From assembly GCA_019694805.1 (NCBI GenBank), contig JAIBBG010000001.1, positions 62,001-126,000 on the forward strand: 64,000 bases of DNA. Reading direction: 5' to 3'. The DNA is from Flavobacteriales bacterium. GTDB taxonomy: Bacteria > Bacteroidota > Bacteroidia > Flavobacteriales_D > Sanyastnellaceae. Positions 25,417 through 45,222 of the stretch are shown in pieces (position 1 is the first letter of the stretch; each line of letters begins with the position of its first letter). The notes under the pieces were generated by a model. It did no database searches, had not been told where the DNA came from, and saw only the letters and a list, made by a program, of their open reading frames with translations. Both the position numbers and the translations under genes were made by a program.

Positions 25417-28400
25417 TTATTGCTTGATCAAACTGATGACCTCTGCTCCTTCTCCGGTATTCAATCGGAGCTGATAGCAGCCAGAAGATAACTCTGAAGC
25501 GTCTACCGTGAATGCAGCATTGCCGTTGACTTTCACATCACGCACCACTCTTCCTGTGGCATCGGTAATTTGATAGCTGATCAGATGACTCGACATTTTC
25601 GCTGGTTTGATCGTAAACGATTGCACAAAAGGATTTGGACTTACGATAAAATCAAACGCGATGTGTTCGTTTAATCCCGTGATTTCAATTTGGATATCAT
25701 CTGAACAACCCAATGAATCTGATACTACGGCATTGTAAATTCCAGTAGCCAAAAGATCCGATACATCTTCATTCTGAGATGAAAAACCATCAGGCCCGGT
25801 CCATGCTATGGTATATGGCGGAACTCCTCCTGCAATGTTGATGTCGATAGCGCCGTTGCCCGCGTCGTTGATATTGGAAGAAGCAACCAAAGTAGCTTCC
25901 AATAATGCTGGCTCTTCAATGGTAAATTCTAATGTTGTTGTTCCCGCACAATTTTCATCATTTGAAATGATGACACTGTAATCGCCAGGAGTGAGATTTT
26001 CAATATCCTCTGATACCGCTTCATTTGACCAGAGATATGACAATCCACTTTGACCACTTTGCATATTGAGATCGATACTACCATTTGCGGCACCGTAACA
26101 GGAAACAGGATGTACTGAAACCGAAGCTACTTCAGGGCTAACGATAGCCTGCAATTGGAGATTGATCAAGGCTGATGTACATAATGGCACCAGACCATTG
26201 TCACAAACAGTGAATCCCAAACTTACATCTGAGGTATTATCTGTATCAGCCAAATACTCCATGATGTGTGTTGTTTCATCAAATGTCATGATACCATGTG
26301 ATGGTTGTTCTACCGTGAAATGCAGGTTTGCATCCACGTCCTGAATATCGCCAACATAACTGTCTAAATCCACTGAGACACTACCTCCCATGCAGACATC
26401 TTGTGTCACATTGAATGCCACAGGTGCAGTGTTACCTTCACCGATTGGCACAACGACGATGGTAAGAACACCGGCATCGCAAACACCACATGGATCACAA
26501 GCATAATATGTCACACTGAATGTTCCTGTGACACCATCATTTGGAATGTATGTGAATGAGCCGTTTTCAGCAAGACTGAAAATGCCATTGCTATTATCCA
26601 AATACAAAGTGTAATACAATACTTCTCCGTCCGGTTCAACATCATTGTCAGCAACGGTACCTGAATACTGACTGTCCTGTTCCAATTCGATGGCATCATC
26701 AAATGCGATAGGTGTATCATTGCCGAAGTCAACTTCAAAAACAATTTTGGCTATGTCGCACATATTTGTTGGATCACAAACATTGTAGTAGACACTATCC
26801 ATTCCAGAGTAATCTGGTTCAGGGGTATAGGTGTATTGTCCATCAATATCCAAGATAAACTCTCCATGAAAAGGAGGAGTGAGCACAGAATAACTCAGCA
26901 CATCATTATCTGCATCAAAATCATTGGTCGCCAAATCACCTGTACCGAAAGTATCTTCCAATACGTGCACATATTCATTGCCCGCAACCGGGTTGTCGCT
27001 CATTGGCAAAATCATCAGATTTACTGTTGCCTGAGAACATCCATTATCATCATCACATACCTCGTAGGTGAAGTTATCTTCTCCATAATAGTCTCCATCA
27101 GGTGAATAGGTAAACGCTCCATCCTGACCAAAACTCAATATACCATGGCTGACTGATGCCACAACGTTGTACTCGAGGAGCAAGCTTTCAACATCTGTAT
27201 CGTTGCCACTGACATTGGCATTCAATACATCGTCTTCATCGAGCGTCCATGCTTCTCCAATGGCTTCTGGTAGATCGTTCACAGGACTGATCAGGACCCG
27301 CATATCTGAAGTCACGCAACCATCCAAGGCATCGCACACAGATATCACGATATTATCTTGTCCAAAGAAATCCATATCCGGTGTGTAGGTAAAACTACCA
27401 TCACTGTTAAGTTCAATATTGCCATGTTCAGCATCTATGCTTACAGAATAAGTCAATGTTGTATTTTCAGGATCCACATCATTTTCCCAAAGAACCCCTG
27501 TGAATATTTGATCTTCTTCCAGATTGAATACATCATCACCGGCAACTGGCAAGTCGTTGAATGAATCCACGACTATATTCACAACAGCAGTGCTGCATAA
27601 ATCACCATTGTCGCAAACCTGATAAGTGAAAGAATCGTTGCCGTTGAAATTCTGATCAGCCAGATAGCTGAAGCTTCCATTTAAAGCAAGATTCAAGGTG
27701 CCATTGCTTACATCAGAAATCAGTGTATAATTCAATGTGACATCATCGATATCCGTATCATTCATAGAAACATTGGCATTCAACACCACATCTTCGAGTG
27801 CGCTGTAATTATCATTCTGGGCCACAGGCGCGTCATTGACAGGCGCAACGTGAATGATGATTTCACCCTGAGTGCAATCAGCCGCATCGCATGCTTCATA
27901 AACCATCATGACATCGCCGAAGAAATCATCAATTGGAGTGTAGGTTAGATTCCCAGCACCATCCATGGTGGCATTGCCAGATGCCGGAGGTGAAATGAGT
28001 TGGTAAGTGAGCTCATCATTTTCTACATCGCTATCATTGGCAGCCACATTACCCATGTATGCCCCATCTTCCAAAATATCTTCTTCTTCATCAGCAACAT
28101 TCGGTGCGTCATTTTGCGCGGAGATATTGATGTTTACAACAGCCTGATCACATGCGTCTCCGGTATCACAAACCTGATAAGTAAATTGATCAGGTCCATT
28201 GTAATTCAACGCAGGTGTATATGTGAATGATCCATTGATGTTAAAAACCAACGTACCATGTATCGGTTGAAGCATTGTACTAAACTCCATTACACCGCCT
28301 TCAACGTCCGATATGAAAGCATTTAAGTTATTCGAAATAGCGACATCCTCATTGGTATTGAAAGAAGCATCACCTGCGGTAGGAGCAGTATTCACTGGGA

Positions 28401-30993
28401 ATATGGTGATGGTTAAAACTGCCATGTCGCATGATAATGTTGCATCACAAGCCATGTAAGTGATTTCATCCACACCATTGAAATTGGCTTCGGGGGTGTA
28501 TGTGTATTCACCGTTTGAATCCAGGACAAATTCTCCATGCAGCGCGTCCTGAACCACAGTATAGGTCAGATTTTCAAGGTCCACATCCAAATCATTTTCT
28601 GCTACCGATCCTTGAAGTACATCATTCTCATATGTAACATTTGCGTCATCATTGGCCACAGGAATATCATTCACAGTAACGATACTCAAGGTTAGCACCG
28701 CCGCATCACATGCACCATCATCATCACAAGCTTCAAAAGTGATAAAGTCAATTCCATTATAATTATCAGCCGGTTCGTAGGTAAAAGTGCCATCATCATT
28801 GACCAACATGGTACCATGCATGGGCGGAGAAATCATCGCATAATGCAACACCACATCATCAATATCAACAACTGTATTGATGGCACCATTCAAAATGCCA
28901 TCTTCGATCAGGAATTCGTCCATGTCCGAAGCCACGGGAGGATCGTTTACAGCAGCTACTACAATAGAAACGTTTGCTGTATCGCATCCACCAGAAGCGT
29001 CGCATACAGCATATGTAGCGAGATCAGGGCCATTATAATTGAAATCAGGCACAAAGGAAAGTTGACCAACTGAGGTCAAGTTCATGGTACCGTGTTGAGG
29101 AGAAGTTATAATCGAGAATGACAGTGCTTCAGCTTCAATGTCTGAAGCATTGGTCGCAATATTGGAGTTATAAGTGATGTCTTCATTGGTATTTATGACA
29201 ATGTTCGCAAGCACTGGCACGTCATTCATTGGTTGCACATTCAATGTAAGTGTGCTCAAAAAGCAAACTGAACAAGGGTCACAACCATAATATGAAACCA
29301 CCTCCTGACCATACCAATCATCGTCGGGTGTGTACGTGAATACACCATCATCTGACAAATCGAGTGTACCATGTTCAGGAGAAGTGACAGTGAAATAGAA
29401 TATTTCTTCACCATCCGGTTCAATATCGTTGGTTCTTAAGTTTCCTGACAAGATTGAATCTTCATTGCCAGAAACTACATCGGCGTTAATCACTGGATTG
29501 TCATTGATCTCGATCACTTCGAGATTCAAGGTTCCATTGGTGCAAGCCATTGATGGATCGCAAACTTGATATGTGATCACTTGATAACCGGCGTAATTCT
29601 GACTTGGGTTAAATGTAAAAGTACCGTTAGCATTAAGGTTGAATGTTCCACCAGTAACTGAACTCACCAAGGAGTATGTCAATTCATCGCCATCAATATC
29701 CATGTCATTATCCAATGTACCACTTATGATTTCATCTTCATATCCGTAGTAATCATCGAGTACAGAAGTGGGTGGATCGTTAGAAGGAGTTACTGTCACA
29801 TAAACTGAAGAAGTATCGCATAGCAGAAATCCATCGCATACTTCTATCACAAAATAATCAGGACCATTGTAATTTCCGACAGGTGCATAAGTAATCGTTC
29901 CATCCACCGAAATGTTTGCGCTTCCATGCAAAGGAGTGGCATAAATGTCATAAGTAAGTGTAGCTGGAGTTTCATCCAGGTCATTGGAAGAAGCATCGTA
30001 GTTATTGCCGTTGCTATCTTCGATCACAGACATATTATCGTTCAAAGCAATTGGCGCATCATTGGCGTCCTGAACGTCGAGGTAAACAAAAGCAACAACA
30101 CATTGGCCTACCATATCACAAACCAAATACATGAAGTTATCCGTGCCATGAAAATCCTGGTCCGGAGAGTAGGTGAATGTTCCATCATTGTTCATCATCA
30201 CTACACCATGCGAGGGCGATGACAAGACAGAAAAAGTGAGTACATCTCCTTCCGGATCGGTTACAAGACCAGAAATGTCGCCATTATAATCAGTATCTTC
30301 AGTGAGTGTAAGTACAGGACTATTGGAAGCCACCGGTTCCTCATTATTGCCAACCACCGTAATATAAACTACAGCCGCAGCACAAGCACCACAAGGGTCA
30401 CACATCACATAATAAAATGAATCTGGGCCTGTATATCCAGGATCTGGAGTGTATTGAAAAGTACCATCCAGAAGCATGATGACATCTCCGTGCAAAGGAT
30501 TTGATGTATTCGCATAATCGTCAAAACCACTTACAGGGTCAGTCAAGTAATCCGGTTCAAAGTCGTTCAATGTGGCGTCACCAAATCTTGGTGTATCCAC
30601 TTCTACGAAAATGTAGTCATCAGAAGGTTGAGGTACGTTATTATGAAACTGAACATAAACCCAAATGGTATCTTGTGAACATTGATTGATTTGGTCGCAG
30701 ACCTGATATACAACAGCTTCATTTCCACCAGTCACATAGGGATCTGCAACAAAAATCCAAGTACCATCCGGGTTAACGGTCAATTCACCCAGCGCCGTTT
30801 CTTGGAGCAAGGTATATGTCAATGTAGAATTGGATGGATTCAGATCATTGTCTGATAGGTCTCCACTTACCGATTCACTGTCATAAGTAAATACTTCATC
30901 TTCTATGGCGGTCGGTGGAATTTGTGCAAAAGAGTATGGTGCCAACAATGACATCAAAACTGTGAAGCCAATCGCTTGAAACCTCTGTAACAT
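25417..30993 (-). CDS. Giant cadherin-like-repeat adhesin with SprB repeats and T9SS type A domain
   Basis: About 1858 residues from the ATG at 30993, which gives a normal signal peptide (MLQRFQAIGFTV... cut after SFAQ); starts at 31020 and 31047 are possible. It has sixteen repeats of about 90 residues plus one degenerate copy, each with a DGTFTYTPD-type strand, an xYNGxDxFTY segment and a C-D-x(3-5)-C pair. Then two SprB-type repeats (PVSCYGAANGSIDL and the AIDINIAGGVPPYTIAW segment) and finally a T9SS type A domain (SPNPFVQSF, DATGRVV). It is a secreted, surface-exposed adhesin. It is separated from the OmpA gene upstream by a terminator. Confidence 0.88.
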   Translation of the reverse strand: MLQRFQAIGFTVLMSLLAPYSFAQIPPTAIEDEVFTYDSESVSGDLSDNDLNPSNSTLTYTLLQETALGELTVNPDGTWIFVADPYVTGGNEAVVYQVCDQINQCSQDTIWVYVQFHNNVPQPSDDYIFVEVDTPRFGDATLNDFEPDYLTDPVSGFDDYANTSNPLHGDVIMLLDGTFQYTPDPGYTGPDSFYYVMCDPCGACAAAVVYITVVGNNEEPVASNSPVLTLTEDTDYNGDISGLVTDPEGDVLTFSVLSSPSHGVVMMNNDGTFTYSPDQDFHGTDNFMYLVCDMVGQCVVAFVYLDVQDANDAPIALNDNMSVIEDSNGNNYDASSNDLDETPATLTYDIYATPLHGSANISVDGTITYAPVGNYNGPDYFVIEVCDGFLLCDTSSVYVTVTPSNDPPTSVLDDYYGYEDEIISGTLDNDMDIDGDELTYSLVSSVTGGTFNLNANGTFTFNPSQNYAGYQVITYQVCDPSMACTNGTLNLEVIEINDNPVINADVVSGNEDSILSGNLRTNDIEPDGEEIFYFTVTSPEHGTLDLSDDGVFTYTPDDDWYGQEVVSYYGCDPCSVCFLSTLTLNVQPMNDVPVLANIVINTNEDITYNSNIATNASDIEAEALSFSIITSPQHGTMNLTSVGQLSFVPDFNYNGPDLATYAVCDASGGCDTANVSIVVAAVNDPPVASDMDEFLIEDGILNGAINTVVDIDDVVLHYAMISPPMHGTMLVNDDGTFTYEPADNYNGIDFITFEACDDDGACDAAVLTLSIVTVNDIPVANDDANVTYENDVLQGSVAENDLDVDLENLTYTVVQDALHGEFVLDSNGEYTYTPEANFNGVDEITYMACDATLSCDMAVLTITIFPVNTAPTAGDASFNTNEDVAISNNLNAFISDVEGGVMEFSTMLQPIHGTLVFNINGSFTYTPALNYNGPDQFTYQVCDTGDACDQAVVNINISAQNDAPNVADEEEDILEDGAYMGNVAANDSDVENDELTYQLISPPASGNATMDGAGNLTYTPIDDFFGDVMMVYEACDAADCTQGEIIIHVAPVNDAPVAQNDNYSALEDVVLNANVSMNDTDIDDVTLNYTLISDVSNGTLNLALNGSFSYLADQNFNGNDSFTYQVCDNGDLCSTAVVNIVVDSFNDLPVAGDDVFNLEEDQIFTGVLWENDVDPENTTLTYSVSIDAEHGNIELNSDGSFTYTPDMDFFGQDNIVISVCDALDGCVTSDMRVLISPVNDLPEAIGEAWTLDEDDVLNANVSGNDTDVESLLLEYNVVASVSHGILSFGQDGAFTYSPDGDYYGEDNFTYEVCDDDNGCSQATVNLMILPMSDNPVAGNEYVHVLEDTFGTGDLATNDFDADNDVLSYSVLTPPFHGEFILDIDGQYTYTPEPDYSGMDSVYYNVCDPTNMCDIAKIVFEVDFGNDTPIAFDDAIELEQDSQYSGTVADNDVEPDGEVLYYTLYLDNSNGIFSLAENGSFTYIPNDGVTGTFSVTYYACDPCGVCDAGVLTIVVVPIGEGNTAPVAFNVTQDVCMGGSVSVDLDSYVGDIQDVDANLHFTVEQPSHGIMTFDETTHIMEYLADTDNTSDVSLGFTVCDNGLVPLCTSALINLQLQAIVSPEVASVSVHPVSCYGAANGSIDLNMQSGQSGLSYLWSNEAVSEDIENLTPGDYSVIISNDENCAGTTTLEFTIEEPALLEATLVASSNINDAGNGAIDINIAGGVPPYTIAWTGPDGFSSQNEDVSDLLATGIYNAVVSDSLGCSDDIQIEITGLNEHIAFDFIVSPNPFVQSFTIKPAKMSSHLISYQITDATGRVVRDVKVNGNAAFTVDASELSSGCYQLRLNTGEGAEVISLIKQ
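25675..26140 (-). repeat. Two SprB-type repeats
   Basis: Coding for two homologous units: one with PVSCYGAANGSIDLN and LTPGDYSVIISND, the second with GNGAIDINIAGGVPPYTI and LLATGIYNAVVSDS. This is the core of the SprB repeat family found in gliding-motility adhesins. Confidence 0.7.
26150..30910 (-). repeat. Array of 16-17 cadherin-like (VCBS/Ig-type) repeats
   Basis: Protein-level tandem repeats of about 90 residues (270-290 bp) encoded on the minus strand. DNA identity between copies is low, so the array is old. Each copy has a Cys pair in the C-terminal strand. The last copy is degenerate. Confidence 0.85.
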
Positions 30994-31205
30994 CTTGTCC
31001 GAATAAAAATTCCTTATCATAAAACGTATTCTGGTTAAAATCCGCACCTATACGTTAAAACACGGATTTTGTTCTGGTGTTTTGAGCCTGATACACCCAT
31101 GATTTCGCATACCCGCCCTATGAATTCACAAAGTTATGATAATCAAGGTAAAACAAAAGCTAAAACAAGGCTTTTCACAGACCTGATACTGGTCAGAAGG
31201 GTTGC

Positions 31206-31271: not shown

Positions 31272-33419
31272 TTACATGGAGAGAATTTTGAACTCAGTAC
31301 GTCGATTTTCCTCGTGTTCCTTATCCGTACATTCAACACCATTAACGCACTTATTGAGCACCTCTTTTTCACCGTAACCTTTGGCAATCAATCGATTAGA
31401 GTCGATACCTTTGCTGGCGATGTATTTCACGGCACTTTTAGCGCGATTGTCAGATAATTTGAGATTGTATTCGTCTTTTCCGCGTGAATCTGTATGTGAT
31501 CGCAGTTCTATCTTCATCGTAGGATATTTCTGAAGGATCGCCACAACTTTATCCAATTCAATGGCAGCATCCGGACGAATATCAGACTTGTTGTAGTCGT
31601 AGTAGATGTTTTCGATACGGATCACGTCTCCTTTGCACAACATTGGGATATCCACTTTGATGTCTTTGGTTCCTGTAATTTTATATGTTGTGAAGAATTC
31701 TTTAGGTTCACCACAATCCTTTTTAGATGTTTTCAATTCGTACTCACAATCCAATTCCAAATTGTCAGCTTTGAAATTTCCATTGGCATCAGTCACCAAT
31801 GTGATTTCTTTACCATTGGTCTTATTGAGCAATGTAACATTCTGATTGGCCAAAGGAGATTTATCGTCTGCGTTGAATACCCTACCACTGAGGTTGGCGA
31901 TATTGACAATCACTGGTATCTTTTTCAATTGCAGTTTTACTTCAGCTCCTGTGGCAGCAGCAGCGGACAATTGTGTGTTTGAAAGGGTTGAATTGCTTTC
32001 ATTGTATTTTTCTTTCACAGCCTTGAATTCATAACTGCGCAAAGGATTCAAGCACTTGGTGAATTTGCCCGATTCGTCAGTGATGACTCCTTCGATTTCA
32101 GTTCCGTTTTCAAAAATTTTCACCTGAGCTTCTTTCAATGGTTCTCCAGATTCCTGATCAACCACAGTAACTGTGGCATTGGTACAAACTTTAGAGAAGA
32201 AATAGATATCATCATCCAGAGGGTTGTTTTTTCTATTGCTGCTGAAATAACCAGATTTAGTAGTTGGATTGTAGGTGATACCAAAATCATCAAAAGATGT
32301 ATTGAGTGGTGACCCCATGTTTTCAGGCTTGCCATTGCTCATTTCAAACAAATCGAAACCACCTATACCGGGAAGTCCGTCAGAAGCAAACATCAATACA
32401 TTTTCTTCGGAAATAAATGGGAAGACTTCATTGCCTGGCGTATTCACTTTGTTGCCCATATTCACCGGGTTTGTCCAGGTTGTTCCATTCCAATCGGTCT
32501 TCCAGATGTCCATTCCACCTTGTCCGCCAGGCATATCCGATGAGAAATACATGATCTTGCCATCTGCGCTCAAGGAAGGATGCATGCATGAATATTGATC
32601 ACTATTGAACGGAAATGGTATTTCGATTCCCCATGCTTTGTCACCCTTTACCGAATGGTAAATTTTCATTCTTACAACTTCTTTATCGTCCTTTTTCACT
32701 TTACCATCTTCAATATTATTTCTGGTGAAATACATCTGCTTACCATCTTTACTAAAACAAACCGGACCATCATGGTATTTAGTCTGTAGGTCATTAGCAA
32801 ACAAAGTTGCAGGGCCGAAACTTGCATCACTTCCATTCGCCTGATATAGTCTATAAAACTGCTTACCAGTCCATGAATGAGAATAGTCCATCCACTCCAC
32901 ATTTTTGCGATTGGATGTAAACACTACACCACCGTTGTATGTCACCGCACAGAAATCAGATTCTTTTGAATTGAGATTGGTTGGCTTCACATCATATGCT
33001 CCGCTTCTGGCCATAATGGCGGATAAATTATCAATACCAGCTTTGAGATTCGTACCACGAACATCGCCAGAGTCCATTGATTTGAACTTTTCAAGTTGAG
33101 TTTTTGCTTCGGGATACTTCTCATTTTGCATGAGGGCTTCCGCATAATAAAGCGTATTCACGGCTGGACTTCCGGGTATGGAAGCTGCCACGGCATACAC
33201 TCTCTCTGCGTTTTTGGAGTCCCTCAGGAAACGGTAACAATCTCCCAATTTCGACCAGGTCTCAATTGATACACTGTCGTTCTTTGCGGATCTTTCGTAT
33301 GCTGCAGCAGCCTTTTTGTAGGCTAATCTGTCGTAGTGTTTGTTACCAGCCTTTACTTGTGCATTGACGAATGCAACAGAGGCAAGTACAACAATGAAAG
33401 CGAGGAAATATTTTTTCAT
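31272..33419 (-). CDS. OmpA-family protein with TPR and PD40 repeats (T9SS PorE-like)
   Basis: 715 residues, signal peptide MKKYFLAFIVVLASVAFVNA. Order: TPR-like helices (about residues 25-130), PD40 beta-propeller blades (about 190-400, for example GKIMYFSSDMPGGQGG), two carboxypeptidase-regulatory-like beta domains (about 425-500 and 515-595) and a C-terminal OmpA peptidoglycan-binding domain (about 600-715, with IELRSHTDSRG and NRRTEF). This is the architecture of T9SS-associated periplasmic proteins such as PorE. It probably links an outer-membrane complex to peptidoglycan. Only 15 bp separate it from the PorP/SprF gene upstream. Confidence 0.92.
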   Translation of the reverse strand: MKKYFLAFIVVLASVAFVNAQVKAGNKHYDRLAYKKAAAAYERSAKNDSVSIETWSKLGDCYRFLRDSKNAERVYAVAASIPGSPAVNTLYYAEALMQNEKYPEAKTQLEKFKSMDSGDVRGTNLKAGIDNLSAIMARSGAYDVKPTNLNSKESDFCAVTYNGGVVFTSNRKNVEWMDYSHSWTGKQFYRLYQANGSDASFGPATLFANDLQTKYHDGPVCFSKDGKQMYFTRNNIEDGKVKKDDKEVVRMKIYHSVKGDKAWGIEIPFPFNSDQYSCMHPSLSADGKIMYFSSDMPGGQGGMDIWKTDWNGTTWTNPVNMGNKVNTPGNEVFPFISEENVLMFASDGLPGIGGFDLFEMSNGKPENMGSPLNTSFDDFGITYNPTTKSGYFSSNRKNNPLDDDIYFFSKVCTNATVTVVDQESGEPLKEAQVKIFENGTEIEGVITDESGKFTKCLNPLRSYEFKAVKEKYNESNSTLSNTQLSAAAATGAEVKLQLKKIPVIVNIANLSGRVFNADDKSPLANQNVTLLNKTNGKEITLVTDANGNFKADNLELDCEYELKTSKKDCGEPKEFFTTYKITGTKDIKVDIPMLCKGDVIRIENIYYDYNKSDIRPDAAIELDKVVAILQKYPTMKIELRSHTDSRGKDEYNLKLSDNRAKSAVKYIASKGIDSNRLIAKGYGEKEVLNKCVNGVECTDKEHEENRRTEFKILSM

Positions 33420-33434
33420 GATGCCGTTTGCAGA

Positions 33435-34400
33435 TTAGAAGTAACGCGGAGTAATTACTTTGTCTTTTGAGTAATTGAAATCATACCCCAACATGATTTC
33501 ATGTGAACCTGTATTAAAGTCTTGAAGTGCGGAAAGAGAATAGTCGTAGCTATACCCAAGTCGCAATTGGCGGGTAATGTTTGCTCCAAGTAACATAGCC
33601 ACAGCATCACCAGTTCTGTAAGATAGACCCGCCCATATGAACTCGTTGAAGAGTGCGTTAGCGCTCAAATCGAGTTCGAGAGGTGCACCACTCACGGTCT
33701 TCAACATCAGGTTTGGACGAAGTTTAACGGTTGGCGCAATATCGAATACAGAACCTGCAGTAATGAAGTAGTGAAAATCGTTCATGCTCAAAGTATTCTT
33801 CACTTCTCCGGTTCCATTGGATACATCCAGTCTGTTCTTCAGCATCCTTGGAATGGAAAAACCAACGTACCATTTTGGTGCCGTGTAGAATGCACCAAAA
33901 CCGAAATTTGGTGCAGACTTTTTACCCGTACTCATCATGAATTGGTTATCCGCCTGCAGATTGAGGTTGGCGAGATTTTCGCTCAGGCTTACCATACCGA
34001 GTTGCAAACCGAAGCTCAATGTATTGTTCTCCATTTGTATGCGGTAGGCACCATTAAGATTAACACCGGTACGATTGCTCACACCGATTTTATCGTTCAT
34101 GATAGAAATACCAGCTCCGAGTTTCTGCTGCATCAAAGGCGCATGCAACGACGCGGTGATGGTTGAAGGTGCACCATCGAGGCCAACCCATTGTTCACGG
34201 TAGAACGCTGTTGTGCTCAAACATTCCCTTGATCCAGCATATGCAGGATTAATGACAAGTTCATTGAACATGTATTGCGTGAACATCGGATCGAATTGCG
34301 CTTCTGCAGTTGCTGTGAGCGAAATGGCCAGCGCCAATACGATGTATTTGCGGATTGATTGATATGTTTTCATCATTGTCATCTTCTTGAATGAATACAT
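33435..34400 (-). CDS. PorP/SprF family type IX secretion membrane protein
   Basis: 321 residues at the first ATG (34400); an ATG at 34373 gives a tighter signal peptide (TYQSIRKYIVLALAIS). Mature protein begins with the family signature FDPMFTQYMFNELVINPAY and continues as an outer-membrane beta-barrel-like sequence, ending in YDFNYS and PRYF strands. In Flavobacterium, SprF is needed for SprB to reach the surface, and PorP is an outer-membrane part of the type IX complex that interacts with type B sorting domains. Its position just after the giant adhesin (7 bp gap) fits a dedicated exporter partner. Confidence 0.93.
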   Translation of the reverse strand: MYSFKKMTMMKTYQSIRKYIVLALAISLTATAEAQFDPMFTQYMFNELVINPAYAGSRECLSTTAFYREQWVGLDGAPSTITASLHAPLMQQKLGAGISIMNDKIGVSNRTGVNLNGAYRIQMENNTLSFGLQLGMVSLSENLANLNLQADNQFMMSTGKKSAPNFGFGAFYTAPKWYVGFSIPRMLKNRLDVSNGTGEVKNTLSMNDFHYFITAGSVFDIAPTVKLRPNLMLKTVSGAPLELDLSANALFNEFIWAGLSYRTGDAVAMLLGANITRQLRLGYSYDYSLSALQDFNTGSHEIMLGYDFNYSKDKVITPRYF

Positions 34401-34407
34401 GGTTTAA

Positions 34408-37400
34408 TTACTTGTTCTCGTATTTAATCACGATATAACCAGATACAACTTTTTGTTCCGCGTTAGGATTGAGGACAGATGGTCCTGGATCCAAAACGTA
34501 GAAGTATGTTCCTTCCGGAACTCTAGAACCAGATACAACTCCTCCTGCAGTGGTGGTTCCATTCCATTCTTCATTTGAAGTGTAGCCATCCTTTTCATAA
34601 ACGATGTTACCCCATCTGTTGAAGATCTTCAAGTTGTTGGCAGGATAAGAATCGATGTTTTCAATCGTGAATGTATCGTTTGTACCATCACCATTTGGCG
34701 AGAAGCCGGCAGGTACCACCAGAACATCATCAGGTTGTGCAACGATGATGATGGTCACAGTTGCAGTCACACATGGCTCACCGCTTGGATCACAAGCCTG
34801 ATAAGTGAAGTCATCGAAGCCGTTGTAATTTGGATCTGGTATGTAGGTGAAGGTACCATCTTCATTCATGATCAGTGTTCCATGATCCGGACCATCAATT
34901 ACTGTATAAATGTAACCTTCGGTATCATTGTCATTATCACTTACATCTCCATCGAATGACACGTCTTCATCCGTGGTGTATTGATCGTTTTCAGCATGAG
35001 GATCAAGTACAGGAAGTACGTTAATCACGACAGTGACGGTGACAGTAACACCTCCAGCATCAGTGATCTGATAGGTGAATGTATCGGTACCGAAGAAGTC
35101 AGTGTCTGGAATGTAAGTAAATGTGCCATCTGCATTGAGGACAAGCACACCATTGTCTACATCATCGAGAACGATGTAAGTCAGGTTATCGCCATCCACA
35201 TCTGAATCGTTGATGCTTACATCACCATCCAAAGTGGTGTCTTCATTGATGGTATATTCATCATCCAAACCAACTGGAGCATCATTGATTGGTATTACAT
35301 TGATGATTACTGTAACAGTATCGCAGTTTCCGTCATCGTCACATACCTGATAGGTAAATGAATCTTGTCCATTGAAGTTTGGATCAGGGACGTAAGTAAA
35401 TGTACCGTCGGCATTCAAGGTCAACGTACCGTTATTCACATCTGTTACGAGTGTGTAAGTCAGAGCGTCTCCATCGAGATCCGAATCGTTGGTGCTTACA
35501 TCAGCGAACAAAATTCCATCTTCATCCACATTGAATGTATCATCAACACCAACAGGTGCGGTGTTCAATTCCTGAACATTGATGAATACAGTTGCTGTAT
35601 CGCAACCTTCTGCGTCGCATGCTTCATAGGTGAATGAATCACTGCCGAAGAATCCTGCATCAGGCACATAAGTGAATGTGCCGTCTGCGTTTAAGGTTAC
35701 ACTACCATTGGTAGTTGAAGTTACCAGTGTGTTGGTCAAATTATCGCCATCAGGATCCACATCATTCTGGCTTACATCACCATTCAGGGTAGTGTCTTCG
35801 GTTGTTGTATAGTTGTCATCCACAGCATCAGGGAGATCATTGATCGGACTTATTTCAATAGTCACGATGGCCTGATCACAACTGTTGCCATCACACGCTT
35901 CATAAACGAAGGTATCAGTACCGAAGAAATCCGGATTAGGTGTGTAGGTATAAGTTCCATCGCTGTTCAGCACCACTGTACCATTCGCAGGAGGTGTAAT
36001 GAGGTTAAATGTCAGTGGATCTCCTTCTGGGTCGCTGTCATTTGAGCTGACGTCACCTCCCACCACATCATCCTCTTCACCTGTATTGGTGTCGTCCACT
36101 GCGATGGGTGAATCATTCACTGGAACAACATTGATGGATACAGTACCAAAATCACATAAGCCATTGTCGTCGCAAACAGAATATTCAAACTGATCTGGTC
36201 CGATATATCCAGGATCCGGGGTATAGGTGAAAGTTCCATCAGCATTCATAACAACAGTGCCATTGGAAGCATCTGCGAACAGGGTGAATGTGAGTGGATC
36301 ATTTTCCGGATCTGTATCGTTGTCAGAAACATCTCCATTCAATGTCGCATTTTCATCTACGGTGTAATTGTCATCCACAGCAATCGGCTCTTCGTTGATC
36401 GGAACAACGGTAATGAATACCGTAGCATCGTCACATTGGTTGTCAGGATCACAAGCCGTATAAGTGAATGAATCATCGCCAAGATATCCTGCATCTGGAG
36501 TATATGTATAAGAACCATCTGCATTGAAGATGAGGGTACCATTGAGAGGTCCGTCGATCAATGTAAACGTCAACACATCACCATCCGCATCGGTATCATT
36601 GAAGCCTGCAAATCCATTGATAAAATCATTTTCGTTGACTTCTACAACGTCGTCTTCAGCAATTGGTGAATCCGGAACCGGATTAACCACAATCGTCACA
36701 TTGGCAGTATCACAGAATACGAGCACGTCGCATACTACATAAGTAAAGCCATCCGTGCCATTAAAATCAGGATTAGGTGTATAAGTGAATGTACCATCAC
36801 CATTGAACGTCAGAACACCATTCTGTACGTCTGTGTCTATAGAGTATGTAAGTACGTCACCATCTGCGTCGCTGTCATTTTCACTTACATTACCATTTAG
36901 AATACCGTCTTCATCAACATCGTATTCATCATCTACAGCAACAGGAGCAGTATTATCTGGTATAACATTGATAATAACCATCGTTACTGGAGAGCACCCA
37001 TCCGTCGGATCACAAGAAACATAAGTGAATGAGGCAATACCCGTAAAGCCGGCATTTGGAGTAAATGTAAATGAACCATCAATATTGAGTACAATTGAAC
37101 CACTCGTAGGTCCGTCAATCAAGGTAACCGTAACCGCATCACCATCCACTTCCAGATCATTATCTGTCACATTACCATTCAGGATGTTGTCCTCAAGAAC
37201 AGTATAGAAGTCCTCAACTGCTTGAGGAGCGTCGTTGACAGGATTCACTACGATTGTAACTGTAGCTACATCACATGCTGCGAATGGATCGCAAGCACTG
37301 TATGTAAATGAATCGGTACCATTAAAGTTTGGATCAGGAGTATAAGTGAATGTTCCATCAGCATTTAATACCAAAGTACCATTCGCTACATCAGAGACAA

Positions 37401-40400
37401 TCGATATAGTGAGGGCATCACCGTCACCATCCGAATCATTTTCAGTTACGTCACCATTCAAAGTTGTATCTTCATCGGTGACATAATCATCATTTACCGC
37501 ATCCGGTGTTTCATTGACAGGAAGCACATTGATGGTCACGGTTGCGGAGGTACACAGCAGACCCGGATCGCAAACGGTATACGTGAATACATCGGTGCCG
37601 ATGTATCCGGCATTTGGTGTATATGTAAATGATCCATCACTGTTGAAAATCAGTGTTCCGTTGGTTACATCAGTATCCAAAGTGAAACTCATCGATTCAC
37701 CATCCGGCTCATTGTCATTATCACCAACGTTACCATTGAACGAAGTGTCTTCATTGGTATTGTAGGTATCATCTGATGCAACTGCAGGATCATCAATTGG
37801 TAGTACATTGATGTTCACTAAAGCTTCATCACAGAATCCGGCAGGATCACAAGCCTGGTATGTAAAGGAATCAGTACCGTTGTAGTTGGCATCAGGTGTA
37901 TATGTAAATGTGCCGTCGGCATTCAGTGTTAAAGTTCCATTCGCAGGATTGTTTACAATGGTATACGTGAGGACATCATTATCAACGTCGCTGTCGTTTG
38001 TTGCCACTGTTCCATTCAACTGGGTATCTTCATCAGTGGTGAAATCATCATCTTCAGCAATTGGAGGTGTTGATACGGTCACGTTGATGGTTACAACTGC
38101 CTGATCACAAACAGCACCTTCGCATACCTGATATGTAAACGTAACTACGCCAAGGAAACCTGGAACCGAGTTATAGGTAAATGTTCCATTGCTATTCAAG
38201 GTTAATGTTCCATTGGACACATTGGTTACCAGAGACCAAACCAAATTGTCTCCATCAGGATTCAGATCATTGTCACCTACATCAGCGATAAGGGTACTTC
38301 CAGAAGTCACGAAGTACTCGTCATCAATAGCGGTTGGTGGATCGTTCACAGGATTAACCTGAATGGTCAATGTAGAAACATCACACACCGAACCTTCACA
38401 AACTTGATAAACGATCACATCTGTTCCGAAGAAATTGGTATTTGGCGTGTATGTGAAAGTACCATTGGAGTTAATGATGATGGATCCGTTTGGTGAACCG
38501 GTAAAGAGTGAATATGTCATACCAGTTACCTCTACCAGAGAGCCAGAAACTGGAGTTTCTTCGTTGGTAGTTACAAAATCATCGAGGTCACAAAGTGGAT
38601 CTGCAGTCAATGGGAATGGGCTACAAGGATTGAGCGGATCACTGCCATTGGTAATTTCAGTACCGTCGTTGAAGTTGTCATCATCGGTATCAGGATCGAG
38701 AGGATTAGTTTCGTCGCCATTACCTACAATTCCATCTTCACCGGCAAGTTCTTCTTCATTGGTAAGACCGTCGTTATCACAATCGTTGAGCGGATCAGAC
38801 AAACAGCTTCCAACAACGATGGTTACCTCACCTTGATCACAGTCTCCATCTTCATCACAGATTTCATAGATGACCATTGCATCACCAATAAAACCGGAAT
38901 CCGGAGTAAAGTCAATGCTGTCATCTGAAGGATCACTTGGAGTGCCATTATCATTCACAGTCGCTGAACCATTCGTCACACTGATCACAGTGATCGCTGA
39001 AGAAGAAGGTCCATCATTTCCGAAGGTATCATTGGACAATACATCCAGTGCGATGGTTGTATTGATTGGAGTTACAGCGTTATCATCACTTGCAACAGGA
39101 CTGCCGCAATCAGAAGAAGGAACAGCATTCGGATTTGGATCACAAGGATCAAGTGGATCACTTCCACCCGCTATCTCGTCATCATTGTTGATTCCATCAT
39201 TGTCACAGTCGTTGGTTCCCAATGACAGACAATCTCCGACAACAATCACAACTGTACCCTGATCGCAATCACCATCTGCATCACAAATTTCATATGTCAT
39301 TTCAGCATCGCCGGTGAATCCTGAATCAGGAGTGAAGTCAATCACATCATCAGTTGGATCGTTAGGCGTGCCGTTATCATTAACAACAGCAGAACCATTC
39401 AATATGCTAAGGATGGTAATGGTACCAGAATTAGGACCATCTGTGCCGAATGAATCATTCGCGAGCACATCTAAAGTTAAACCTTGATCCAGTGGTGTTG
39501 AGTAATTGTCATCCGATGCTAAAGGAGTACCGCAATCGGCAGAAGGAATGGCATTTGGATCGGGATCACATGGATTGAGAGGATCACTTCCTCCTGCTAC
39601 TTCATTACCATCATCGAATCCATCATCATCTGTATCTGGATCAGCTGGATCAGTACCAGCAGTCAATTCATCTCCAGCATTCAAACCATCGGAGTCACAA
39701 TCTGTGCTAGTAACAGCTCCTGCATTGGGATCACATGGGTCAGATGGATCACTTCCATTGGTGATTTCATCACCATTGTTGATTCCATCATTATCGCAAT
39801 CCAGTGCTGCAAAATCCAAACAATCACCAACGAAGACTGTCACAATCGCTTGGTCACAATCCAATTCAGCATCACAGATTTCGTAAGTAAATTCTGCAAC
39901 TCCGGAGAAACCACTATCAGGTGTAAAATCAATGGTATCATCGGTCGGATCATTTGGGGTACCTCCGTCATTTACAACAGCTACACCATTGATCGAAGAA
40001 ATAACCGTGATGTCTTGTGCAGATGGGCCATCCACACCAAAAGTATCATTATTCAGCACATTCACATTGACTGCAACATCAATAGGTGTAAGTACACTAT
40101 CATCATTTGCATCAGCTGTTCCACAATTCTCAGAAGGAATGGCATTTGGATCCGGATCACAAGGATTAAGAGGATCTGAACCTCCAGATACTTCAGTACC
40201 ATCGATGAAACCATCACCATCCGTATCAGGGTTCAATGGATCAGTGCCAGCGATGTCTTCATCATCATTAACAAGTCCGTCATTGTCACAATCGTTTGTA
40301 CCAAGTGCGAAAGGATTTGGATCGCAAGAATCAAGCGGATCGAAACCGAGATTGACTTCTGTACCATCATTGAAGGTATCACCATCCGTATCCGGATTCG

Positions 40401-43400
40401 CTGGATCGGTACCAATCAAAATTTCATCTGCAGCACTCAGACCGTCGAAGTCACAATCGTTGAACGAAAGTGCGGCTGCATCTGGATCACAAGAATCGAG
40501 TGGATCAGAGCCACCCAAAATTTCATCGCCATCTTCGTATCCGTCGCCATCTGTATCAGGATTCAATGGATCGGTGCCGTATAAAGTTTCATCGTCATTA
40601 TTCAGTCCATCATTATCACAATCGTTGGTTCCGATGGCAAATGGATCTGGATCACAAGCATTCACTGGATCAGAACCATTGTTTACTTCAGTACCATCAT
40701 CCAAACCATCACCATCAGTATCTGGATTAGCTGGATCTGTTCCAAAGAGGTCTTCCATAGTTGAATCGAGACCATCGTTATCGCAGTCATTGGAAGCAAT
40801 AGCTCCTGCATCTGGGTCACAAGCGTTCAGTGGATCTGAACCACCACTTACTTCATCTCCATCATTGAAACCGTCACCATCTGTGTCAGGGTTCAATGGA
40901 TCAGTACCAGCGATGTCTTCATCATCATTAACAAGTCCGTCATTGTCACAATCATTCGTGCCAAGCGCGAATGGATTCGGATCGCAAGAATCAAGCGGAT
41001 CGAAACCGAGGTTGACTTCTGTACCATCATTGAAGGTATCACCATCCGTATCCGGATTGGCAGGATCGGTACCAATTAAAATTTCATCAGCAGCACTCAG
41101 ACCATCGAAGTCACAATCGTTGAACGAAAGTGCAGCGGCATCCGGATCACAAGAATCGAGTGGATCAGAACCACCCAAAATTTCATCACCATCGTCATAT
41201 CCGTCGCCATCTGTATCAGGATTCAATGGGTCAGTACCATAAATATTTTCATCATCGTTGTTCAAACCATCCCCATCACAATCGCTGGTGCCAATAGCAA
41301 ATGGATCTGGATCACATGCATTCACAGGATCAGAACCATTGTTGACTTCAGTACCATCATCCAAACCATCACCATCAGTATCCGGATTGGCTGGATCTGT
41401 TCCAAAGAGGTCTTCCATGGATGAATCGAGACCATCGTTATCGCAGTCATTGGAAGCAATAGCACCTGCATCTGGGTCACATGCGTTCAGTGGATCAGAA
41501 CCACCACTTACTTCATCTCCATCATTGAAACCGTCACCATCTGTGTCAGGGTTCAATGGATCAGTACCAGCAATGTCTTCATCATCATTTACAAGTCCAT
41601 CGTTATCGCAATCGTTCGTTCCAATGGCGAATGGATTTGGATCGCAAGAATCAAGTGGATCGAATCCGAGGTTGACTTCTGTACCATCATTGAAGCTATC
41701 ACCATCCGTATCCGGATTGGCTGGATCGGTGCCAATCAAAATTTCATCAGCAGCACTCAAGCCATCGACATCACAGTCATTGAATGAAAGCGCAGCAGCA
41801 TCCGGATCGCAAGAATCGAGTGGATCTGAGCCACCCAAAATTTCATCACCATCATCGTATCCGTCACCATCAGTATCAGGATTTATTGGATCAGTGCCAT
41901 AAATATTTTCATCATCATTATTCAAACCATCACCATCGCAATCATTAGAGCCAATGGCGAATGGATCAGGATCACAAGCATTCACAGGATCAGAACCATT
42001 GTTTACTTCAGTGCCATCATCCAAGCCATCACCATCTGTATCCGGATTGGCTGGATCTGTTCCGAAAAGGTCTTCCATGGTCGAATCCAGACCATCATTA
42101 TCACAGTCATTCGAAGCAATAGCTCCTGCATTTGGATCACATGCATCCAAAGGATCGGTGTTGTTGTTTACTTCATCACCATCTAAAAACCCATCACCAT
42201 CTGTATCAGGATTTGTATTGTCAGTACCTGCTAAAATTTCTCCATCATTATCCAGTCCGTCGTTGTCACAATCATTCGTGCTCAAGGCGTTGATATCAGG
42301 ATCACATGGGTTAAGTGGATCAGTTCCACCATCTACTTCATCGCCGTCATTGATTCCGTCACCATCTGTATCCGGATTTCCAGCATCGGTTCCAGCATTT
42401 GCTTCTTCGTTGGTATCTAAACCGTCATTGTCACAATCATTGGTTGAAAGGGCATTTGGAAATGGATCACATGAATTCAGTGGATCACTACCACCGTTCA
42501 GTTCATCACCATCTTCTACTCCATCATCATCAGTATCCGGATTCAATGGGTCAGTGCCGGCGATATCTTCCTCGTCGTTGGTGAGTCCATCGTTATCACA
42601 ATCATTCGTTCCAAAAGAAAATGGATTTGGATCGCAGGCATTCAGTGGATCAAAACCCAGGTTGACTTCTGTTCCATCGATGAAAGAATCTCCATCTGTG
42701 TCTGGATTTGAGGGATCAGTTCCGAAAAGATCCTCGTCCGCTGCGCTTAATCCGTCGAAGTCGCAGTCATTTGTTGAAAGCGCATTTGGATCCGGATCAC
42801 ATGAATCAAGAGGATCCGTACCCGTGAGTACTTCATCTCCGTCTTGAATAGCGTCGTCATCGGTATCTGGATCCAAAGGATCAGTTCCAATTGTATTTTC
42901 ATCGTCGTTATTTAAGCCATCAGCATCGCAATCATTCGTGGTGAGAGCGAATGGATCAGGATCACAAGCGTTCACCGGATCTGAACCATTGTTCACTTCA
43001 GTTCCATCATCGAGACCGTCAGCGTCGGTATCTGGGTTGGCGGGATCTGAACCAAAAAGATCTTCCATGGCCGCATCCAATCCATCGTTATCGCAATCGC
43101 TCGAAGCAACAGCTCCAGCATCAGGATCGCAAGCATCATTTGGATCAGAGCCACCTGTTACTTCATTACCGTCATTCAATCCATCACCATCTGTATCTGG
43201 ATTGGTGTTGTCTGTACCCGCCAAAATTTCTCCTGCATTATCCAATCCATCATTGTCACAGTCATTCGTTGCGAGGGCATTGATATTTGGATCACAAGGA
43301 TCCAATGGATCAGTGCCTGCAGTATTTTCATCATCATCGCTGATGCCATCGCCATCCGTATCTACTGCATCGATGACTGAATTCACTGTAACAGTGATAT

Positions 43401-45222
43401 TCGCAATATTTGAAGTGATACCATCATTGTCTTCAATGGTATAAGTGATAGAAGCTGTGCCGAAGTAATCAAGGGTTGGGATATAGGTGACATCTCCTGT
43501 TCCAGTATCCACGCTCCATGATCCTTCCGCTGTTATGATGCTGGTCTGTTGGCCAGCTGTATTAGGATCGAGGTCTATGGTTGAAGCATCTACAGTACCA
43601 TCCGCATCGGTATCATTACCATCAATATTGGCAATTACAACCTGAACATCTTCATCGGTTGTAGCAAGGTCGTCATGAGCAACAGGGGGAATTGAAGGAC
43701 AAGCAAATGAATCAGATGTATCAGTATTGTAGACAGTCAATTCCTGATTGGCAAGTGCAGACGGGATGACTGATTTGGTGATGACTGTTCTTACACCATT
43801 TCTATAAGGATAACTTACAACGACATATACCAATTCATCGGGATCAGCAACTGCAAAGTGTAAGACTGGATTACCAAAGGTGCCATAACCCTCACCAGCA
43901 GCGAGATTCACGAGAGGTGAAATTCTAGTACCGGAGCAGTTGTATAGTGCAGCATTTGCTCCATTTGCTATGGCGGATGATGAACTACCAAAATCCCACA
44001 ATGCATGAACACGCAAGAAGTTGGTATTGTTAAGCTGATTCTGCCAAAGCTGATTGTCCAACGAAGCCATGTTGAGATAAAGATCAAGGTCACCATCATT
44101 ATCTGTGTCCACAAATGATGCACCTTGAGCATTGCCGGCTGGATTGATTCCAAAATTTACTGGGGATGAAGGTTGACTGAAAGTTAATGAAGATGCTCCA
44201 TCATTTTGAAAGAGATAACCCTCCGTATGCACATTGGCGAGAAACAGATCAATATCGCCATCATTGTCGATATCGCCCGCTGTGACACCATCAATGGTTG
44301 CGCTTGAAAGATCAACACCTGATGAAGCAGATGGTTCTCCTGTTGCCGTGAAAGTACCGCCATCATTGGTCCAAATCTGATTTGTGGCGTTGTCTGCCCA
44401 AAAAAGATCGAGATCACCATCGCTGTCAAAGTCTGCCCAACATACTCCACCTTTATTTGAGTTACTTGCTGATTGATTGAAGGAAGCAGACGAGAATGTT
44501 CCATCGCCATTGTTGCGCCAGATATCATCATTGGTATTTCTTCTCACACAAACATCCACATAGCCATCATTATCATAGTCTGCGGCTGCTGAATAATCAC
44601 CACCAGAACCACCGGTAGGAAGTCCTGTCGCGGCATTACTCACCTGTGTGAAGTTACCAGTACCATCATTACTTAATATATCTACACCAAATGTGTGATC
44701 ATCCATTAGGATATCCAGATCGCCATCATTGTCGAAATCCAATACCAAAATACCCTCAGCATTGATACCACCAGACAAAGACGTGACTGACTGATTAGGT
44801 GCCTGCGCAACAGTACCGAAACTATATGCCGGACTCGATGATGGCCCCTGATTCAACCAGATATTCACCACATTGAAGGTGTTGACGATGAAGTCAAGAT
44901 TTCCGTCGTTGTTGAAATCTGCGGCGACAGCCGACCTTTCGGTGGTCGTTGATGTCAAGCCACTCGCGTTTGATGCTGTAACATCTGAGAAACTGGTGCC
45001 ACCAGACGAAAACAACAATCTGGTATTCACAGAACCATCATTGGTATTCACCAAAAGGTCCAGGTATCCGTCATGGTTGAAATCTGCCCAACAGAAACCG
45101 GCATCTTTATTTCCAGAAATATCGACTCCCTGAGAGGAGGCAACATCTGAGAATGATACTTGGGCAACGCCGCTCCATGCGAGCAGACTGAAAACAGAAA
45201 TCAGAATAGAATTCTTCATCAT
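34408..45222 (-). CDS. Giant SprB-like calcium-binding adhesin with gliding-motility C-terminal domain
   Basis: 3604 residues with a signal peptide (MMKNSILISVFSLLAWSGVA). Domains in order: seven FG-GAP/VCBS repeats with DxDNDGDxD loops (about 25-400), an ASPIC/UnbV domain (about 400-495), an Ig-like domain (about 510-620), thrombospondin type 3-like Asp-rich calcium repeats (about 627-1695), three Ig-like modules alternating with TSP3 units (about 1695-2210), 14 cadherin-like repeats (about 2214-3494) and a CHU_C/gliding-motility type B sorting domain (about 3512-3604, with FSPNGDGTNDTF and NRWGNIVYE). It should be secreted by the T9SS and act as a long surface adhesin. It is followed by its PorP/SprF and OmpA partners. 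Confidence 0.93.
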   Translation of the reverse strand: MMKNSILISVFSLLAWSGVAQVSFSDVASSQGVDISGNKDAGFCWADFNHDGYLDLLVNTNDGSVNTRLLFSSGGTSFSDVTASNASGLTSTTTERSAVAADFNNDGNLDFIVNTFNVVNIWLNQGPSSSPAYSFGTVAQAPNQSVTSLSGGINAEGILVLDFDNDGDLDILMDDHTFGVDILSNDGTGNFTQVSNAATGLPTGGSGGDYSAAADYDNDGYVDVCVRRNTNDDIWRNNGDGTFSSASFNQSASNSNKGGVCWADFDSDGDLDLFWADNATNQIWTNDGGTFTATGEPSASSGVDLSSATIDGVTAGDIDNDGDIDLFLANVHTEGYLFQNDGASSLTFSQPSSPVNFGINPAGNAQGASFVDTDNDGDLDLYLNMASLDNQLWQNQLNNTNFLRVHALWDFGSSSSAIANGANAALYNCSGTRISPLVNLAAGEGYGTFGNPVLHFAVADPDELVYVVVSYPYRNGVRTVITKSVIPSALANQELTVYNTDTSDSFACPSIPPVAHDDLATTDEDVQVVIANIDGNDTDADGTVDASTIDLDPNTAGQQTSIITAEGSWSVDTGTGDVTYIPTLDYFGTASITYTIEDNDGITSNIANITVTVNSVIDAVDTDGDGISDDDENTAGTDPLDPCDPNINALATNDCDNDGLDNAGEILAGTDNTNPDTDGDGLNDGNEVTGGSDPNDACDPDAGAVASSDCDNDGLDAAMEDLFGSDPANPDTDADGLDDGTEVNNGSDPVNACDPDPFALTTNDCDADGLNNDDENTIGTDPLDPDTDDDAIQDGDEVLTGTDPLDSCDPDPNALSTNDCDFDGLSAADEDLFGTDPSNPDTDGDSFIDGTEVNLGFDPLNACDPNPFSFGTNDCDNDGLTNDEEDIAGTDPLNPDTDDDGVEDGDELNGGSDPLNSCDPFPNALSTNDCDNDGLDTNEEANAGTDAGNPDTDGDGINDGDEVDGGTDPLNPCDPDINALSTNDCDNDGLDNDGEILAGTDNTNPDTDGDGFLDGDEVNNNTDPLDACDPNAGAIASNDCDNDGLDSTMEDLFGTDPANPDTDGDGLDDGTEVNNGSDPVNACDPDPFAIGSNDCDGDGLNNDDENIYGTDPINPDTDGDGYDDGDEILGGSDPLDSCDPDAAALSFNDCDVDGLSAADEILIGTDPANPDTDGDSFNDGTEVNLGFDPLDSCDPNPFAIGTNDCDNDGLVNDDEDIAGTDPLNPDTDGDGFNDGDEVSGGSDPLNACDPDAGAIASNDCDNDGLDSSMEDLFGTDPANPDTDGDGLDDGTEVNNGSDPVNACDPDPFAIGTSDCDGDGLNNDDENIYGTDPLNPDTDGDGYDDGDEILGGSDPLDSCDPDAAALSFNDCDFDGLSAADEILIGTDPANPDTDGDTFNDGTEVNLGFDPLDSCDPNPFALGTNDCDNDGLVNDDEDIAGTDPLNPDTDGDGFNDGDEVSGGSDPLNACDPDAGAIASNDCDNDGLDSTMEDLFGTDPANPDTDGDGLDDGTEVNNGSDPVNACDPDPFAIGTNDCDNDGLNNDDETLYGTDPLNPDTDGDGYEDGDEILGGSDPLDSCDPDAAALSFNDCDFDGLSAADEILIGTDPANPDTDGDTFNDGTEVNLGFDPLDSCDPNPFALGTNDCDNDGLVNDDEDIAGTDPLNPDTDGDGFIDGTEVSGGSDPLNPCDPDPNAIPSENCGTADANDDSVLTPIDVAVNVNVLNNDTFGVDGPSAQDITVISSINGVAVVNDGGTPNDPTDDTIDFTPDSGFSGVAEFTYEICDAELDCDQAIVTVFVGDCLDFAALDCDNDGINNGDEITNGSDPSDPCDPNAGAVTSTDCDSDGLNAGDELTAGTDPADPDTDDDGFDDGNEVAGGSDPLNPCDPDPNAIPSADCGTPLASDDNYSTPLDQGLTLDVLANDSFGTDGPNSGTITILSILNGSAVVNDNGTPNDPTDDVIDFTPDSGFTGDAEMTYEICDADGDCDQGTVVIVVGDCLSLGTNDCDNDGINNDDEIAGGSDPLDPCDPNPNAVPSSDCGSPVASDDNAVTPINTTIALDVLSNDTFGNDGPSSSAITVISVTNGSATVNDNGTPSDPSDDSIDFTPDSGFIGDAMVIYEICDEDGDCDQGEVTIVVGSCLSDPLNDCDNDGLTNEEELAGEDGIVGNGDETNPLDPDTDDDNFNDGTEITNGSDPLNPCSPFPLTADPLCDLDDFVTTNEETPVSGSLVEVTGMTYSLFTGSPNGSIIINSNGTFTYTPNTNFFGTDVIVYQVCEGSVCDVSTLTIQVNPVNDPPTAIDDEYFVTSGSTLIADVGDNDLNPDGDNLVWSLVTNVSNGTLTLNSNGTFTYNSVPGFLGVVTFTYQVCEGAVCDQAVVTINVTVSTPPIAEDDDFTTDEDTQLNGTVATNDSDVDNDVLTYTIVNNPANGTLTLNADGTFTYTPDANYNGTDSFTYQACDPAGFCDEALVNINVLPIDDPAVASDDTYNTNEDTSFNGNVGDNDNEPDGESMSFTLDTDVTNGTLIFNSDGSFTYTPNAGYIGTDVFTYTVCDPGLLCTSATVTINVLPVNETPDAVNDDYVTDEDTTLNGDVTENDSDGDGDALTISIVSDVANGTLVLNADGTFTYTPDPNFNGTDSFTYSACDPFAACDVATVTIVVNPVNDAPQAVEDFYTVLEDNILNGNVTDNDLEVDGDAVTVTLIDGPTSGSIVLNIDGSFTFTPNAGFTGIASFTYVSCDPTDGCSPVTMVIINVIPDNTAPVAVDDEYDVDEDGILNGNVSENDSDADGDVLTYSIDTDVQNGVLTFNGDGTFTYTPNPDFNGTDGFTYVVCDVLVFCDTANVTIVVNPVPDSPIAEDDVVEVNENDFINGFAGFNDTDADGDVLTFTLIDGPLNGTLIFNADGSYTYTPDAGYLGDDSFTYTACDPDNQCDDATVFITVVPINEEPIAVDDNYTVDENATLNGDVSDNDTDPENDPLTFTLFADASNGTVVMNADGTFTYTPDPGYIGPDQFEYSVCDDNGLCDFGTVSINVVPVNDSPIAVDDTNTGEEDDVVGGDVSSNDSDPEGDPLTFNLITPPANGTVVLNSDGTYTYTPNPDFFGTDTFVYEACDGNSCDQAIVTIEISPINDLPDAVDDNYTTTEDTTLNGDVSQNDVDPDGDNLTNTLVTSTTNGSVTLNADGTFTYVPDAGFFGSDSFTYEACDAEGCDTATVFINVQELNTAPVGVDDTFNVDEDGILFADVSTNDSDLDGDALTYTLVTDVNNGTLTLNADGTFTYVPDPNFNGQDSFTYQVCDDDGNCDTVTVIINVIPINDAPVGLDDEYTINEDTTLDGDVSINDSDVDGDNLTYIVLDDVDNGVLVLNADGTFTYIPDTDFFGTDTFTYQITDAGGVTVTVTVVINVLPVLDPHAENDQYTTDEDVSFDGDVSDNDNDTEGYIYTVIDGPDHGTLIMNEDGTFTYIPDPNYNGFDDFTYQACDPSGEPCVTATVTIIIVAQPDDVLVVPAGFSPNGDGTNDTFTIENIDSYPANNLKIFNRWGNIVYEKDGYTSNEEWNGTTTAGGVVSGSRVPEGTYFYVLDPGPSVLNPNAEQKVVSGYIVIKYENK
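34735..38600 (-). repeat. Fourteen cadherin-like repeats of the giant adhesin
   Basis: About 14 copies of a 90-residue repeat, well conserved around DGTFTYTPD, YxGTDSFTY and the C-D-x(3-5)-C pair. Thirteen copies have both Cys residues; the next-to-last (TDFFGTDTFTYQITDAGG) has none. The same repeat makes up most of the second adhesin. Confidence 0.85.
38815..40135 (-). repeat. Three Ig-like modules interleaved with TSP3 units
   Basis: Three copies of a roughly 100-residue module, each with LDVLxNDTFGxDGP-type, NDxGTPxDPxDD and IDFTPDSGFxGDA-type segments and ending at a VVGDCL-like linker, near 39830-40130, 39240-39530 and 38815-39110. Each is separated from the next by one or two Asp-rich TSP3 units. 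Confidence 0.75.
40137..43266 (-). repeat. Array of about nineteen 55-residue TSP3-like calcium-binding units
   Basis: Each unit is 55 residues (165 bp) with the pattern NDCDNDGLxNDDE, GTDPxNPDTDGDG, EVxxGSDPLxxCDP. The two Cys per unit and the Asp ladder resemble thrombospondin type 3 repeats. Unit types recur in a fixed order. Confidence 0.9.
40141..42120 (-). repeat. Higher-order 660-bp tandem repeat (three copies)
   Basis: Four different 55-residue units (order B-C-D-A) recur as a block exactly 660 bp long: about 41461-42120, 40801-41460 and 40141-40800. By eye, 40321-40380 differs from 40981-41040 at one base, and 40981-41040 from 41641-41700 at three, so the duplications are recent. 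Confidence 0.9.

Follow-up and report, generated by a model that had tools for sequence, protein, structure and literature searches.

A nested 165-bp repeat in the TSP3 array of a predicted type IX-secreted adhesin, evolving probably by in-frame unequal crossing-over

The alpha-satellite higher-order repeats of eukaryotic centromeres consist of diverged monomers arranged in a repeated multi-monomer block; the size of this block differs between relatives, and the arrays change by unequal crossing-over. In bacteria, long tandem repeats are known from the Periscope Proteins (for instance, SasG, Rib, and Sgo_0707) (PMC8201768, PMC9704523), which were defined in a survey by repeats of more than 50 residues with at least 80% identity (PMC8201768). 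For the type IX secretion system (T9SS), a complex of PorE, PorP, and a type B cargo (PG1035) as well as the binding of SprB to SprF have been demonstrated biochemically in other species (PMC9143113). Here, we analysed a window of 64,000 nucleotides from a Flavobacteriales bacterium (contig JAIBBG010000001.1), which contains a giant adhesin gene with a nested array of 165-bp units. Our main reading, to which we assign a probability of about 0.8, is that the array is an old, maintained TSP3 stalk of a T9SS adhesin that has evolved by in-frame unequal crossing-over of these units.

The adhesin gene (34408-45222, minus strand; 10.8 kb) was delimited by its open reading frame and translation together with Pfam and NCBIfam matches and encodes 3604 amino acids. 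Its domains follow the order of FG-GAP repeats, one CshA-type repeat, the TSP3 array, a long Big_9/tandem-95 run, and a CHU_C/T9SS type B sorting domain. The sorting domain scores 46.9 bits against TIGR04131 (cut-off 35) and 89.5 bits against CHU_C, and the curated cut-offs firmly place the adhesin among predicted T9SS type B cargo proteins. The gene for a PorP/SprF-family outer-membrane protein (33435-34400, minus strand; 281.7 bits against Pfam PF11751, 276 bits against TIGR03519) lies on the same strand only 7 bp downstream, and its product is the likely anchor partner of the adhesin. The next gene (31272-33419, minus strand) encodes an OmpA-family protein resembling PorE/CHU_0125; its OmpA Pfam domain is above the cut-off and its top NCBIfam matches (424 and 366 bits) are both below theirs, and because the latter score, obtained against T9SS_PorE, is under the 600-bit cut-off, we name the protein PorE-like only. 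The adhesin would be secreted via the type IX system, and the products of the adjacent PorP/SprF and PorE-like genes would probably retain it at the surface. Directly downstream of these two genes, a second giant surface protein of 1876 amino acids is encoded (25417-31047, minus strand), with about 16 Big_9/tandem-95 repeats, SprB repeats, and a T9SS type A sorting domain; Pfam SprB repeats were reported in this neighbour and none in the 3604-residue adhesin. The end of this giant gene at 25417 is abutted by the stop of a convergent gene for the carbamoyl-phosphate synthase large subunit (22600-25416, plus strand; 938 amino acids), which matches only positions 1 to 930, approximately, of the 1058-position model.

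The TSP3 array (40126-43260, minus strand; residues 655 to 1699 of the adhesin) is built from 19 consecutive units of exactly 165 bp (55 residues), with no indel and no stop codon. The Pfam family TSP3_bac (PF18884) scores 423 bits over the whole adhesin and passes its curated cut-off, and a genome search returned 27 matches in this gene, most of them above the cut-off; the TSP3 designation of the first-pass annotation is confirmed by this match, and membership in TSP3_bac is firmly predicted by the curated cut-offs. In every 55-residue unit, two cysteines occupy fixed positions alongside two acidic motifs. Aspartate makes up 25.5% of the array's 1045 residues, lysine, arginine, and histidine are absent, and the net charge is computed at about -309. 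TSP3 repeats are calcium-binding and adopt a wire-like fold linked by disulfides; from what is known of these families, the array would bind calcium and serve as a stalk in an adhesin displayed at the cell surface. AlphaFold yielded no reliable fold (pLDDT 48 for five units, 51 for two units), and a PDB sequence search had a biofilm-associated surface protein as its single, weak match (E 0.0014). Downstream of the array (38781-39798, minus strand), more single or partial TSP3 units are found between Ig-like domains of about 100 to 160 residues, which themselves recur; over this stretch, the repeats continue in a looser and mixed form. Antisense to the array (39932-43444, plus strand), there are four consecutive long open reading frames (436, 214, 297, and 168 amino acids) in one register; with a unit length that is a multiple of 3, a frame without stops in one unit tends to remain so in the others, and these frames are probably by-products rather than genes.

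In the coding direction, the units are arranged in the order F B C D A E F B C D A B C D A B C D A, and the identity matrix of the 165-bp units has the block-level structure that the first-pass annotation had predicted for it. Units 8 to 19 comprise three 660-bp blocks on the minus strand: block 1 (units 8 to 11, B C D A/F; 41446-42105), block 2 (units 12 to 15, B C D A/F; 40786-41445), and block 3 (units 16 to 19, B C D A; 40126-40785). DNA identity is 90.5% between blocks 1 and 2, 88.8% between blocks 2 and 3, and 85.0% between blocks 1 and 3, and the corresponding protein identities are 96.8%, 93.6%, and 92.3%. At a distance of four units, the mean identity within units 8 to 19 is 0.896, a value reached by none of 20000 unit-order shuffles (maximum 0.80) in tests that ignore autocorrelation. 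The threefold BCDA block of 660 bp described at first pass is therefore recovered, and its proposed extent of 40141-42120 agrees with the register of units 8 to 19 (40126-42105); change-point analysis puts the limits of the homology shifted by 660 bp near 40150 at one end and near 41485 at the other (partner near 42145), and the best 660-bp tandem pair begins near 40250 with 92.7% identity. Same-type units share 78 to 95% DNA identity among the three blocks, the B, C, D, and A units of the first series share 68 to 81% with their block counterparts, and most other unit pairs share 56 to 73%.

The blocks are preceded by an older series (units 1 to 5, F B C D A; 42436-43260, minus strand), a single type E unit (unit 6; 42271-42435, minus strand), and a second F (unit 7; 42106-42270, minus strand; 76% DNA and 78% protein identity to unit 1). 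The earlier F-B-C-D-A series and the one E unit had been noticed at first pass, and both are present, but the second F and the 6-unit period had been missed: because unit 7 is a second F, the older period spans six units, FBCDAE followed by FBCDA, with 74.7% DNA identity between units 1 to 5 and 7 to 11. Every even offset in the identity matrix scores above every odd offset, which indicates an older two-unit period beneath the block of four; in the unit tree, B clusters with D and, less firmly, A with C. We also considered that similar neighbours might be avoided in the array, and we rejected this candidate since the protein identity of adjacent units (0.625, versus 0.643 for all different-type pairs) is explained by the even/odd parity.

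Between blocks, 63 to 99 of the 660 positions differ, with dS values of 0.49 to 0.89 and dN values of 0.015 to 0.048; units 11 and 15, like units 14 and 18, encode identical protein from DNA that differs by 5 to 7%. Because dS is high and the amino acids are nearly frozen, the high protein similarity of the blocks reflects selection and not youth, and the block copies are, by this substitution pattern, old and under strong purifying selection. Near-identical protein repeats thus need not imply recent duplication. The units of this genome cluster by type in the unit tree (B and D firmly, A and C less firmly); by this topology, the blocks seem to postdate the divergence from the sister species, but their age is not that of a strain-variable locus. 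The candidate idea that selection, over and above ordinary constraint, keeps the unit types apart was rejected, dN/dS within types being about 0.05 to 0.15 at type-variable sites and similarly low between old copies.

Array organization varies among relatives. The sister species G002 and G005, both represented by fragmented assemblies, share the residue at which the array begins; units 12 to 16 of G002 are orthologous to units 4 to 8 of G005 and are displaced from them by exactly 440 residues, or 8 units. The junction unit of G005 (unit 3) is similar to G002 units 3/9 in its N-terminal half (89%) and to unit 11 in its C-terminal half (75%). G002 has a six-unit (990-bp) block of its own, 87% identical over four units, and a member of another genus (G077) has a 2-unit alternation; across these sequences, block size is lineage-dependent (2, 4, or 6 units) over a common 55-residue unit. 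More distant relatives have a unit of about 61 to 63 residues, and a scan of named genome contigs gave just two distant loci. At loci from other members of the family and order (L077, L078, and L090), the TSP3 units are about 61 to 63 residues long, not 55, and those of L077 and L078 lie close to a T9SS type B-like C terminus. The array-carrying contigs of seven genomes (G002, G003, G004, G005, G014, G033, and G077) end inside or beside the array; contig ends of this kind occur in all related genomes that carry the array (loci L029, L030, L031, L033, L035, L073, L074, and L075). Contig-end searches detected only diverged copies elsewhere in G002 and G005, and 83 to 90% copies in G014, one of them at the end of another contig; the breaks may be due either to longer exact repeats or to a mixture of strains. 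Because the contigs of these relatives break in or next to the array, draft and metagenome assemblies probably often lack the full length of such adhesins or understate it.

Unequal crossing-over, the mechanism suggested at first pass, is well supported as the process shaping the array by three features of the sequences: hybrid-like units, the whole-unit length difference of 8 units between sister species, and the lineage-specific block sizes. Within the array, units 11 and 15 have a composite character. Their residues 1 to 42 are as in unit 19 at 40 of 42 positions, whereas the F-like tail (residues 43 to 55; 41446-41484 in unit 11 and 40786-40824 in unit 15, minus strand) is as in unit 7 at 12 of 13 positions versus 7 of 13 for unit 19, whose own last 13 residues are unlike those of units 11 and 15. 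The shuffle P value of this two-part split is ≤0.0002 with units 19 and 7 as references and 0.007 to 0.15 with units 5 and 1. At silent sites, the same codons are used at 9 of 12 positions in the hybrid tail versus 16 of 30 elsewhere; since this support from a 13-residue tail is weak, shared selection on the residues preceding B is a possible alternative to an A/F hybrid.

Under the crossing-over reading, the array would have evolved by in-frame unequal homologous exchange between misaligned 165-bp units. The F-B-C-D-A-E series would have been duplicated, creating the 6-unit period; crossing-over of the last A with the second F, misaligned by 4 units (660 bp), would then have generated an A/F hybrid followed by B-C-D-A, turning F-B-C-D-A into a 660-bp B-C-D-(A/F) repeat; and one more 660-bp exchange would have brought the blocks to three, after which many silent changes would have accumulated in the blocks while the protein stayed nearly constant. 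Because 165 is a multiple of 3, such exchanges change the stalk by whole 55-residue units and leave the gene unbroken. We infer the order of exchanges, and both this order and the crossover sites can be deduced because the blocks have diverged enough to be read; the array would thus be a clean record of length change in a giant surface protein.

The first-pass annotation had regarded the block expansion as recent, pointing to the segments 40321-40380 and 40981-41040. These do differ at one base, but the one-in-60 stretch is exceptional, since 74 of 660 nucleotides differ between the blocks that hold the two segments, and the dS range given above contradicts a recent origin. An expansion that is recent, varies between strains, and tunes stalk length now could draw on this stretch and on the related MAG contigs, whose breaks in or next to the array would fit mixed-length populations; against the inter-block dS, and with a longest exact internal repeat of 74 bp (between blocks 1 and 2) that provides little substrate for frequent recombination, we consider it decidedly improbable. 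Tuning of stalk length between strains is plausible, the length difference being seen at species level only (G002 versus G005). We consider it very unlikely that the number of blocks is an assembly artefact. The genome is a draft in 106 contigs and such arrays break the assemblies of relatives; however, the blocks are separated by the 63 to 99 differences noted above, and reads of at least 100 bp would resolve copies that share no exact repeat beyond 74 bp. Given this repeat length and a contig of 530 kb, the three-block count is credible.

Gene conversion after an old duplication, as opposed to plain copying, could also have kept the blocks alike. Blocks 1 and 2 share an exact run of 74 bp, the longest run of silent identity has a P value of 0.046, and the unit tree joins blocks 1 and 2 for A and C but blocks 2 and 3 for B, all of which is in line with such exchange. 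Against it, the silent differences show an otherwise even spread (P = 0.38 and 0.16), and a duplication in phase C-D-A-B, the phase of the best pair beginning near 40250, accounts for the mixed topology. No clear signal of gene-conversion patches was found between the blocks, and we regard this explanation as unlikely. It seems similarly doubtful that the nested blocks represent a separate mode of stalk construction in bacteria, with diverged neighbours and length change by exchange of multi-unit blocks; the literature covered, which was limited, contained nothing relevant on higher-order repeats in bacterial adhesins, and this absence is weak evidence. On that reading, the divergence of neighbouring units (56 to 71% identical) might limit misfolding between like neighbours.

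The locus shares with the SprB-SprF and PG1035-PorP-PorE systems a type B sorting domain and adjacent PorP/SprF and PorE-like genes, and differs from them in the repeat part of the adhesin, which consists of a TSP3 array and Big_9 repeats. Like bacterial TSP3 repeats in general, the array has the acidic D.D.DG motif and passes the PF18884 cut-off many times; here, however, the motif is doubled in a 55-residue unit with two fixed cysteines, and the units are further organized into higher-order blocks. With alpha-satellite arrays, it has in common diverged monomers within a repeated block, a block size that varies between lineages, and unequal crossing-over, but it is coding, has only three blocks, and is under purifying selection at the protein level. 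Like the Periscope Proteins, the adhesin carries tandem repeats of more than 50 residues between a presumed functional N-terminal part and a C-terminal anchor, with length changes by whole repeats and recombination between repeats. Periscope Proteins are also characterized by repeat numbers that differ among strains and by an elongated rod presenting a ligand-binding domain; for the adhesin family studied here, the difference observed is that of 8 units between species. By the 80% criterion, the 220-residue block (92 to 97% protein identity) lies above the threshold, whereas the 55-residue unit (56 to 71% to its neighbours) lies below it; in addition, the block DNA is about 10% diverged, whereas the repeats of Periscope Proteins are nearly identical, and the adhesin would be exported by the T9SS instead of being held by a sortase anchor. 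By these comparisons, the array is best described as a higher-order repeat in the stalk of a Periscope-like T9SS adhesin, in which the nested layout is uncommon, whereas stalks of variable length are already known.
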